Source: an uncultured Clostridia bacterium | GTDB taxonomy: Bacteria > Bacillota > Clostridia > Monoglobales > Monoglobaceae | NCBI GenBank assembly: GCA_947589045.1 | Contig: CANQBQ010000006.1 | Coordinates: 1-64,000, forward strand | Reading direction: 5' to 3' | DNA: 64,000 nt | Shown: one piece after another, positions 13,024 through 16,461 of the stretch | How positions within the stretch are numbered: the first letter of the stretch is position 1 | Layout: each line of letters opens with the position of its first letter | Position numbers and translations under genes: made by a program | The notes under the pieces: model-generated | Databases searched by the model: none | The model's input: the letters and a program-made list of their open reading frames with translations, nothing else | What the model was told of the DNA's origin: nothing

Positions 13024-13785
13024 TTAAATTCTTACCGAAACGCCCTCGCTTTTCAAATATTTTTTCAGGTCGTTTATCTCAATCTCTTTGAAGTGGAACA
13101 GCGAAGCCGCCAAAGCCGCGTCCGCTCCTCCGAAGGTCAGAGCGTCTTTGAAATGCTCCATATTTCCCGCGCCGCCCGAAGCAATTACGGGAATGGTGGT
13201 GTTGTCCGCCACCGCACGGGTCAGCTCGTTGTCATAGCCCGCTTTGGTGCCGTCTCGGTCCATCGACGTGAGCAGTATCTCGCCCGCGCCGAGACGGTTC
13301 GCACGCACCGCCCATTCGAGCGCGTCAATTCCCGTGTCTATGCGACCTCCGTTTACAAATACGTTCCAGCCGCTTTTGTCGTCTCTGAGCTTTGCGTCTA
13401 TCGCGACGACCACGCACTGACTGCCGAACCTGTCCGCCGCACGGGAGATGAGATTTGGGTCGCGTATCGCCGAGGAGTTTATCGAGATTTTGTCCGCGCC
13501 CGCGCCGAGCAGAGAGCGGAAGTCCTCAACGGATTTAATTCCGCCGCCCACCGTGAACGGAATGAACACGGTTTCGGCAACCCTCCGCGCCATATCCACG
13601 ACGGTGCCGCGCGCCTCGTGGGTCGCCGTTATGTCGAGGAACACAAGCTCGTCTGCACCCGCCTCGTTGTATATTTTTGCGACCTCTACCGGGTCGCCCG
13701 CGTCCTTTAAATTGACGAAGTTAACGCCCTTTACGACGCGCCCCGCGTTTATGTCAAGACAGGGAATTATGCGTTTTGCAAACAT
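13024..13785 (-). CDS. hisF: Imidazole glycerol phosphate synthase, cyclase subunit
   Basis: HisF is the (beta/alpha)8 barrel that uses ammonia from HisH to convert PRFAR to imidazole glycerol phosphate and AICAR. The 253 residues match the family. The catalytic aspartates D11 (PCLDINAG) and D130 (AIDAK) are present. Its start codon overlaps the hisH stop by one base (TAATG), indicating translational coupling with its partner. No other histidine genes lie in the window, so the pathway is split around the genome. Confidence 0.97.
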
Positions 13786-14399
13786 TATGCGCCGCCTCCC
13801 AGCTCAATGAAATTTTGAAGTATCCTAAGCCCGACGTCGCCGCTCTTTTCGGGGTGGAACTGCGTCGCGAATATATTATCCCGCCATACCGCAACGGGTA
13901 TGCGCTCGCCGTATTCGGTATAAGCCGAAACAACGCTTTCGTCTGCGGGAGCTATGCGGTACGAGTGTACGAAATATACGAACGGGTCGTCTCCGATTTC
14001 TTTGAATATAGGGCAGTTTTTGTCGTACTCGAGAGAGTTCCAGCCGATGTGGGGTATTTTAAGCCCGCAGTCTTTAAGGCGCACGTTTTCGCCCGAAAAA
14101 ATGCCGAGCCCCGCCGCACCTTCGCTCTCCTCGCTCTCGTCAAACAAAAGCTGAAGTCCGAGGCATATTCCGAGAAAGGGCTTTCCGCTGTCTGCCGCGC
14201 CGCGCACCGCGTCGGTAAGACCGAGCGTGCCGAGACTTTGCATACAGTTGCCGAACGCGCCCACGCCCGGAAGTATCACCTCGTCCGCCGAGAGTATCTC
14301 GGATTTATCCGAGGTAATTCGAGCGTCCGCGCCGAGAAATTCGCACGCCTTTTGCACGCTTCTCAAATTCCCCGCGCCGTAATCAATAATCGCAATCAT
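13785..14399 (-). CDS. hisH: Imidazole glycerol phosphate synthase, glutaminase subunit
   Basis: HisH is a class I glutamine amidotransferase that supplies ammonia to HisF. The nucleophile C79 lies in GICLGLQ, and H182 and E184 complete the triad in FHPEKS. Length (204 residues) is normal. A weak GGTGA ribosome site precedes ATG 14399, and a promoter is visible at 14432-14460. It is translationally coupled to hisF. Confidence 0.96.
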
Positions 14400-14501: not shown

Positions 14502-14530
14502 TGGACAAACCGAATTGCTTGTGATAAAAT
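14502..14530 (+). promoter_or_regulatory. Promoter of the leucine-rich-repeat gene leader
   Basis: TGGACA at 14502-14507, a 17-base spacer and TAAAAT at 14525-14530, with TGA directly before the -10. Predicted start near 14537, leaving about 260 bases of leader before ATG 14797. Confidence 0.65.
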
Positions 14531-14536
14531 AATCTT

Positions 14537-14765
14537 TGCCAAACAATTTCATATTTTAATAACATATGCTGTAAAATTTAAAATAGTGTGAATACGATTC
14601 GCACCGTAGTTTTAATTTGATGATTTCCGCACATTTTACTAAGGTAAAATGTGAACTCTGCCTTAATATTCGTGTGCGGAATTGTTTATGAATATTTGGA
14701 ATTGTTTGGCGACAATGCGGAGTTGCGCTTTTTACAGTGTGCGGCTTCGCGCCGCACATTTTTTT
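14537..14765 (+). promoter_or_regulatory. Structured leader with four mutually complementary segments and a terminal terminator (attenuator-like)
   Basis: This fills the gap of about 400 bases before the leucine-rich-repeat gene. Four copies of one 7-base element occur: CCGCACA at 14627-14633, TGTGCGG at 14673-14679, TGTGCGG at 14738-14744 and CCGCACA at 14752-14758. Pairing 1:2 and 3:4 leaves the terminator at 14738-14765 formed, while 1:3 or 2:4 would disrupt it. A separate 10-bp hairpin (14630-14639 with 14644-14653) competes with segment 1. I recognise no known riboswitch class and no T-box antiterminator sequence. The arrangement is visible in the sequence; the switching function is inferred. 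Confidence 0.45.
14738..14765 (+). terminator. Intrinsic terminator within the leader of the leucine-rich-repeat gene
   Basis: An 8-bp GC-rich stem (14738-14745 with 14751-14758) with a 5-base loop is followed by seven T residues. It lies only 31 bases before the start codon and downstream of the promoter at 14502, so it must be read through for the gene to be expressed from that promoter. Confidence 0.8.
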
Positions 14766-14796
14766 GTTTTAATTTAATTTCGGGGAGGAAAAACAA

Positions 14797-16461
14797 ATGA
14801 AAATGACAGCAAAACTTTTATCGGTGCTCCTTTGCGCGGCTATGCTAATATCGCTTTTGCCGATTACCGTCTCCGCGGCTGTTTTGGGAGACTTGCAGTA
14901 CGAGGTGAAAGACGACCACGTTGTAATAACGCTCTGCAGAAAGACTGCGACTTCGGTGGATATTCCCGCCCAAATAGACGGCTTGCCCGTAACCGAAATC
15001 GGCGGTAGTGCGTTTGAAGAATGCAACTCTCTCAAAAGTGTGACCATACCGAGTAGTGTTACGACCATAGATTACTGGGCATTTGGTAATTGTGATAGCC
15101 TTACTAAGATAATAATACCAGAGGGTGTAACTATTATTGACCGTTCTGCGTTTGACAGTTGTGAAAACCTTACGAGTGTGACTTTGCCTAATAGTTTGAC
15201 GAAAATAGGAGAAACAGCATTTGCATATTGTTATTCTCTTTCCAATATTAAAATTCCGAACAATGTGACAAGTATAGGTTATGAGGCGTTCAATAGATGT
15301 GGATATTACAATAATACGAAAAATTGGAAAAACGGGGTATTGTATATAGGCGATTGGCTGATAGATGCCGACGGAGATACAATTCCGTCAAATTATACCA
15401 TAGCTTCGGGTACAAGAGGTATTGCTGATAATGCTTTTTATCAATGCAAGTGGCTTGAAAGTGTTACTATACCTGATAGTGTGAGCAATATGGGAAGATC
15501 TGTGTTTGGGGATTGTATTAATCTTACAAATGTAAATGTACCAAAATTCATAACCAACATAGGAGAGTATGTATTTTATAATTGTCCCTTCCTCACAAGC
15601 GTTACGATTCCCGACAACGTTACGAGCATAGGCGCGTACGCGTTTTCTGGTTGTTCTGCACTCACAAGTATAACCATACCGAGAAACGTTACGAGTATAG
15701 GTAAGGAGGCATTTTACGGGTGCAACAGTCTTGAACGAGTCGAAATAAGTGATTTAGTGTCTTGGTGCAGTATTGTGTTTGGCGATGCTTACGCCCATCC
15801 GTTTTATTCCTCTGAGTCGGTGGACAGAGGAATTTATATAAACGGAAATAAATTGACGGATATAACCATACCGAACGGCGTTACAAGCATAGGCGGTTAT
15901 GCGTTTTGTGATTGTGTAGGCATTACAAGCGTGACCATGCCGAGCAGTGTTACGAGCATAGGTAGAAGTGCGTTTTCAGGTTGCTATAATCTTGCAACCG
16001 TGTATTACAGCGGTAGCGAAGCGCAGTGGGAAAATATCTATATTAATGGTGGCAATTCCGAGTTGGAGAGCGCAACGATACACTATCTCGGCACTGATGA
16101 GGGCGACCCGAAGCCGCCCGTCATAGAATATCCGTACACTATAAACGGGCTGTCGCTTGTAAGCGTGAGCGGCGAAGCGCTTACCGCGCCGCCGTCCGAT
16201 TCGGCGTTTATGGTAAATGTTGAGCTTGAAAAGACAAAGTCGCGCAGCGCGCAGGACTATCTGTTCGTCGCGGTCTATGATACGCGGGGCGCACTTTTGA
16301 GCCTCAATTATGTTCGGGCAAATTTCACATACAACAGTGGGCTTGAGTTTGGCTTTTACGTTCCGGCGCAGACAAGAAAAATCGGCTCTATAAAGGCTTT
16401 TGTCTGGACTGGGTTTAACACCGAACAGCCGCTTTGCGAGAGCGTTGAAATCAAAAATTGA
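14797..16461 (+). CDS. Secreted BspA-like leucine-rich-repeat protein
   Basis: A 554-residue exported protein. The N-terminal signal peptide (about 1-27) has a hydrophobic core and a likely cut after VSA. Residues about 55-430 are tandem BspA-type repeats of roughly 23 residues (SVTIPDNVTSIGAYAFSGC pattern), with two irregular insertions near 165-205 and 315-350. The C-terminal 100 residues form a GC-richer beta domain ending KAFVWTGFN, a module I associate with clostridial surface proteins. No sortase motif or S-layer domain is seen. Such proteins commonly bind host or partner-cell ligands, but no ligand can be assigned. The middle (15060-15600) is more AT-rich than the ends, suggesting a mosaic. 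GGGGAGG precedes the ATG. Confidence 0.92.
   Translation: MKMTAKLLSVLLCAAMLISLLPITVSAAVLGDLQYEVKDDHVVITLCRKTATSVDIPAQIDGLPVTEIGGSAFEECNSLKSVTIPSSVTTIDYWAFGNCDSLTKIIIPEGVTIIDRSAFDSCENLTSVTLPNSLTKIGETAFAYCYSLSNIKIPNNVTSIGYEAFNRCGYYNNTKNWKNGVLYIGDWLIDADGDTIPSNYTIASGTRGIADNAFYQCKWLESVTIPDSVSNMGRSVFGDCINLTNVNVPKFITNIGEYVFYNCPFLTSVTIPDNVTSIGAYAFSGCSALTSITIPRNVTSIGKEAFYGCNSLERVEISDLVSWCSIVFGDAYAHPFYSSESVDRGIYINGNKLTDITIPNGVTSIGGYAFCDCVGITSVTMPSSVTSIGRSAFSGCYNLATVYYSGSEAQWENIYINGGNSELESATIHYLGTDEGDPKPPVIEYPYTINGLSLVSVSGEALTAPPSDSAFMVNVELEKTKSRSAQDYLFVAVYDTRGALLSLNYVRANFTYNSGLEFGFYVPAQTRKIGSIKAFVWTGFNTEQPLCESVEIKN

Follow-up and report, generated by a model that had tools for sequence, protein, structure and literature searches.

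Riboswitches of the terminator/antiterminator type, and orphan riboswitch candidates, are 5' leaders in which a sensor domain and mutually exclusive helices are combined with an intrinsic terminator before a gene. T-box leaders of Firmicutes are large 5' leaders that likewise choose between a terminator and an antiterminator. Surface and adhesion genes of Clostridia are among the targets of c-di-GMP riboswitches (GEMM-I and GEMM-II). The name 'mobile attenuators' has been given to related attenuator-like units that lie in front of unrelated genes (PMC2965389), and 3161 unnamed structured-RNA candidates have been reported from human microbiomes (PMC8040213).

We analysed the leader of a leucine-rich-repeat (LRR) gene in a 64,000-nucleotide stretch of DNA from an uncultured Clostridia bacterium (the window). 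We found that this leader is very probably a cis-acting transcription attenuator that belongs, as a diverged copy, to a large and unnamed RNA family in Clostridia. As in a riboswitch, a conserved folded domain in the 5' leader is joined to an expression platform. Unlike described riboswitches, the family has no match in Rfam 15, its outer stem begins at the predicted first transcribed base, the promoter belongs to the conserved unit, and some genomes carry about 10-20 copies, mostly before genes for secreted or unknown proteins. It differs from T-box leaders in that there is no Rfam T-box match and the downstream genes are not related to amino acids.

A first-pass annotation of this DNA had suspected that the leader belongs to no known riboswitch or T-box class, and the Rfam searches agree. 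No Rfam 15 family reached its gathering cut-off in the window. At E values up to 10, the leader gave chance-level matches only; the best of these, SL2, scored 29.9 bits against a cut-off of 41, and we rejected this identity as chance. A scan of 16 loci with family members also placed no Rfam family on the element. Our literature search found no description of the family. It may be among the unnamed candidates of PMC8040213, which are alike in being structured, intergenic and from gut bacteria; this comparison was made from the main text of that paper, which does not allow identification.

The features of the leader and its gene are listed in Table 1. The LRR protein has a signal-peptide-like N-terminus and BspA-type LRR_5 repeats. 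On the other side of the leader lies a divergent 204-aa open reading frame (13785-14399), which we read from its sequence as a putative hisH.

Table 1. Predicted features of the leader and downstream gene (positions in the window)
Feature	Position	Strand	Remarks
Promoter	14502-14530	+	-35 TGGACA 14502-14507; extended -10 TGATAAAAT (TG 14522-14523, hexamer TAAAAT 14525-14530); spacer 17
P1 5' strand GCCAAACAATT	14538-14548	+	At predicted RNA 5' end; 11-bp outer stem
Side hairpin	14586-14604	+	8 bp, 5' side
Inner stem (P2-like) 5' strand TTCCGCACA	14625-14633	+	Contains the first-pass 14627 segment
P3 hairpin CACATTTTAC/GTAAAATGTG (segment 0 : segment 1)	14630-14653	+	Perfect 10 bp, 14630-14639/14644-14653
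Segment 1 AAAATGTGAACTCTGC	14646-14661	+	Pairs with segment 0, alternatively with segment 2
Inner stem (P2-like) 3' strand TGTGCGGAA	14673-14681	+	Contains the first-pass 14673 segment
P1 3' strand AATTGTTTGGC	14700-14710	+	Followed by conserved linker GACAA
Segment 2 GCGGAGTTGCGCTTTTTAC	14717-14735	+	Pairs with segment 1 or segment 3
Intrinsic terminator (segments 3:4) and U tract	14736-14765	+	10-bp stem
Segment 3 GTGCGGCTTCGC	14739-14750	+	Terminator 5' arm and loop; 12-bp antiterminator with 14717-14728
Ribosome-binding site GGGGAGGA	14782-14789	+	
Regulated gene, secreted BspA-type LRR protein	14797-16461	+	554 aa; LRR_5, E = 2.3e-88

Several elements had been read correctly in the first pass. 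The repeats CCGCACA (14627-14633 and 14752-14758) and TGTGCGG (14673-14679 and 14738-14744) can be read directly from the sequence, the promoter and terminator lie where they had been placed, and the additional 10-bp hairpin pairs perfectly. What had been overlooked was P1, the two complements of 14717-14735, and the same architecture in related genomes. The leader folds more stably than all 200 of 200 dinucleotide shuffles (z = -4.6; z = -3.9 for 14615-14770 alone). Segment 2 has two overlapping long complements, segment 1 upstream and the terminator 5' arm. Both alternative helices are present in the window, with duplex energies of -15.3 kcal/mol (1:2) and -17.4 kcal/mol (2:3), each better than the mean with non-cognate partners.

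When the DNA of 60 relatives was searched directly, the right half of the leader gave short matches, and around them the same order of parts recurred. It begins with TG-n-TATAAT, 6-7 bases, GCCAAACAA... and a variable inner stem. Next come a hairpin that has an A-rich 3' strand (GGTAAAAATGCA-GCTCT), then the 3' strand TTGTTTGGC and GACAA-CGGAG-GCGTTTTT; a terminator stands between this sequence and the ribosome site with its start codon. We built a covariance model, R1, from 11 relatives, leaving out the window sequence. R1 found the element in 39 of the 60 sampled genomes, with up to 21 copies per genome; 35 of the 37 genomes in this sample that belong to the window's own family contained it. 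At class level, 79 of 391 sampled Clostridia genomes (46 of 219 genera) had the element. Among 299 genomes sampled across the phylum, R1 matched the window's own genome only, which indicates that chance matches are rare. An exact 20-mer of the element, TTGTTTGGCGACAATCGGAG, occurred in at least 120 genome-contig stretches; the 80 that were listed are Clostridia-type bins, mainly from ruminant, rabbit and other gut samples.

The window copy is a weak member of this family. R1 matched it at 14538-14732, through P1, P3 and segment 2 (37.0 bits, E = 1.2e-4 over 117 kb). When the whole genome was searched, the score covered just a trimmed portion of this copy (22 bits, E about 1); we therefore also base its membership on the shared promoter spacing, the identical ends of P1 and the two alternative helices. 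The copy is diverged, with about 60 extra bases on the 5' side, including the side hairpin; several long family members also have an extra hairpin at that position. It retains the whole cassette, with an extended -10 at the family distance from P1 (7 nt from the hexamer), a terminator that adjoins segment 2, and behind it a ribosome site and gene.

We found that the promoter is coupled to the RNA. Of 143 elements, 130 have a gap of 6 nt (110 elements) or 7 nt (20 elements) between the -10 hexamer and P1. An extended -10 in which five or more of the six positions match is present in 115, compared with 3.8 expected in shuffles. Given this fixed spacing, transcription very likely starts at the first base of P1 or its neighbour, and promoter, sensor and terminator make up one portable unit. 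At several loci such units occur as tandem pairs, each with its own promoter. We rejected a switch by promoter inversion between inverted repeats: the repeats do not enclose the promoter, and they form P1 of a covarying RNA.

Both alternative folds show compensatory change. Relatedness among the sequences inflates the covariation counts and pairing scores that follow, and part of segment 2 is fixed in one helper set that had been picked by the exact 20-mer. Among 95 distinct sequences, P1 was 99.1% paired, and 10 of its 11 pairs had changed on both sides. Helix 1:2, which is not part of the R1 model, was 91.8% paired in the same sequences, with seven pairs compensated. Together, P1 and helix 1:2 had 246 doubly changed cells, compared with 65.5 +/- 6.5 in shuffles, and with the helices slid out of register pairing dropped to 36-56%. 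P2 and P3 were supported as well; the counterpart columns of P3, a helix included in R1, were 88-94% paired. Helix 2:3 was 86.4% paired in 137 tails, with 40 doubly changed cells compared with 9.8 +/- 8.1 in shuffles. Cognate segments paired better than swapped ones. Over all elements, z was -16.8 for 1:2 and -12.7 for 2:3; when two groups were analysed separately, it was -10.4 and -9.9 for 1:2, and -9.8 and -4.4 for 2:3. Individual copies illustrate this. In one copy from the window's own genome (C1:119521), segment 2 reads TAAAATCTAAGCC and the terminator arm GGCGTAGATTTA, and segment 1 is altered to match. The copy that precedes the closest LRR homologue (L032) has TAAATCAC as segment 2 and GTGATTTA as the arm. 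These two are clear independent cases of coordinated triple change.

The first-pass annotation had offered a different scheme, in which cross-pairing of the 7-mers sets the stem 14627:14673 against the terminator 14738:14752. These 7-mers are exactly complementary in the window. Across the family, the leader body, which contains this stem, and the terminator of the same element paired no better (-14.12 kcal/mol) than those of unrelated elements (-14.22 kcal/mol), and 1436 of 2000 permutations were at least as good as the cognate arrangement. We consider this scheme highly improbable. Since this pairing is not conserved, the case for switching runs through other segments: the comparisons indicate that the conserved competition is that of segments 1:2, 2:3 and 3:4. 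Support thus extends to the earlier idea that the leader is of the attenuator type, with folds that exclude one another, and precedes a gene for a secreted BspA/LRR_5 protein; it does not extend to the particular alternative pairings. The test suggested with it, conservation of the leader in relatives with covariation in both alternative folds, gave a positive result with these other segments.

In 143 of 144 non-redundant elements, segment 2 is followed by a terminator that has a U run; the median energy is -15.4 kcal/mol. When either the terminator or the antiterminator was enforced, the two folds differed by a median of -0.3 kcal/mol, with 81% of elements within 5 kcal/mol and the window at +1.0 kcal/mol. 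Such near-equal energies are how a bistable device with helix 1:2 as the tie-breaker should look.

Sequence comparison establishes the predicted cassette, P1, P2, P3, both alternative helices (1:2 and 2:3), the terminator and where the gene lies. We infer that the fold really switches, and in the following direction. With transcription starting at the first base of P1 or beside it, P1, P2 and P3 would fold as a self-contained sensor domain. P3 contains segment 1, and segment 2, on emerging, would choose its partner. In the OFF state, segment 2 would invade P3 and take segment 1; segment 3 could then join segment 4 in the terminator, and the RNA would end at about 14765. In the ON state, segment 2 would pair with segment 3 as an antiterminator, and polymerase would enter the LRR gene. 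A signal would switch the gene on by stabilising P3, and off by opening P3 or stabilising helix 1:2.

In 119 of 167 elements, segment 2 is followed after 44-128 nt by a start codon with a ribosome site. LRR_5 (BspA-type) domains were matched in 32 of 103 downstream proteins and MazE/MraZ-type families in six; others were zinc-ribbon or unknown proteins. By coordinates, many copies lie just upstream of LRR matches (e.g., G033:C1, G033:C5, G006:C24, G013:C3 and G025:C1). By a simple hydropathy rule applied to the protein start, 65 of 102 downstream proteins had a secreted or membrane-like N-terminus, compared with 62 of 270 background open reading frames (odds ratio 5.9, p = 5.5e-13). The element appears to be built to halt or permit transcription of mostly secreted proteins.

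The element could instead be a free-standing small RNA gene, with the LRR gene transcribed by chance readthrough or from another promoter. Promoter, RNA and terminator do travel together at fixed spacing, tandem copies each have a promoter, and 48 of the 167 copies have no nearby same-strand start codon, so some copies may act otherwise. However, most copies have a ribosome site and start codon close behind, the downstream genes have a common function (secreted or LRR), and a conserved antiterminator that breaks the terminator would have no purpose in a simple small RNA. We regard a small RNA gene as unlikely.

It is more improbable still that the element is a transposon-derived terminator cassette, spread by transposition like the mobile attenuators of PMC2965389 and without regulated switching. 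Many copies precede unrelated genes, and P1 resembles a terminal inverted repeat. Against this, copies within one genome differ widely and keep their pairing by compensation, searches of phage and plasmid collections with the RNA element gave no match, and the exact 20-mer TTGTTTGGCGACAATCGGAG was found in no viral contig. The family thus differs from mobile attenuators in its compensatory structure across many genera and in that no mobile element was found with it. A transposon end was judged unlikely, given the lack of any match in the phage, plasmid and viral collections.

Returning to the attenuator reading, we considered what signal it might sense. The family differs from the c-di-GMP riboswitches GEMM-I and GEMM-II in having no Rfam match and in that several copy-rich hosts show no GGDEF domains: genomes with 21 (G029), 19 (G003) and 12 (G019) copies had no GGDEF match, some of the genomes being incomplete. 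We rejected c-di-GMP as a general signal because of the missing Rfam match and because GGDEF content and copy number disagree in these three genomes and in G021. The last, a near-complete genome of the same family on a single contig of 2,757,678 bases, has 14 GGDEF domains and, unlike its congeners, no copy of the element.

The signal could plausibly be an RNA-binding protein acting on the same attenuator in place of a small molecule. A protein could suit the size and mixed functions of the regulon and the short stretches of unpaired bases that are conserved; the usual candidates, however, are missing. CsrA was found in none of the 37 genomes of the window's family, nor was a BglG-type RNA-binding domain, and each of the 37 has a single NusG and hence no LoaP paralogue. 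Control by CsrA, BglG/LicT-type proteins or LoaP was accordingly rejected as a general signal. The conserved unpaired stretches are AAUA after P1, UUU after CUCU and ACAA after P1, and these bases might mark binding spots for a ligand or protein. Leader open reading frames of at least 8 codons with a ribosome site occurred in 68 of 144 elements, compared with 42 in shuffles; among those listed, both place and peptide vary.

We tentatively suggest a new riboswitch class, with some metabolite or messenger as ligand, that would coordinate the surface and secreted proteins in many gut and rumen Clostridia. Each genome would do this with about 5-20 portable promoter-sensor-terminator cassettes, of which some are arranged in tandem. 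An abundant regulatory RNA family outside Rfam appears to control many secreted and LRR proteins in these uncultured bacteria. It provides a testable handle on how they choose what to display on the surface, and on a signal that is apparently not c-di-GMP. The R1 model and the covarying helices make a hunt for the ligand or protein practical now.

Some downstream regions have features of their own. In several genomes the gene directly after the element encodes a recurrent small protein of ~50-65 aa (M-DYKKLYHKLFNDITDVIEELQ...) with no assigned family (L225, L236, L246, L282, L296, L301, L306, L308 and L264). Many copies (L226, L228, L238, L261, L265, L269, L277, L292 and L315) are followed by short AbrB/MraZ-like proteins, several with C-terminal CxxC pairs; these are possible regulators in the same circuit.

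Gene-less copies L287, L275, L288, L290, L297, L307 and L310 have, directly after the terminator, a second complement of the P1 3' strand plus segment 2. The predicted duplexes are about -26 to -37 kcal/mol, and a convergent open reading frame adjoins many of these copies. Those with this second complement are maybe a non-coding or sponge form. Three copies in the window's own genome (L311, L312 and L313, at G000:C1:48909, C1:81093 and C23:12983) have a common post-terminator stretch, GGATATATCC ... AAAAGGAGGGATATT ..., and seem to face a convergent open reading frame. They are possibly a separate type of non-coding RNA.
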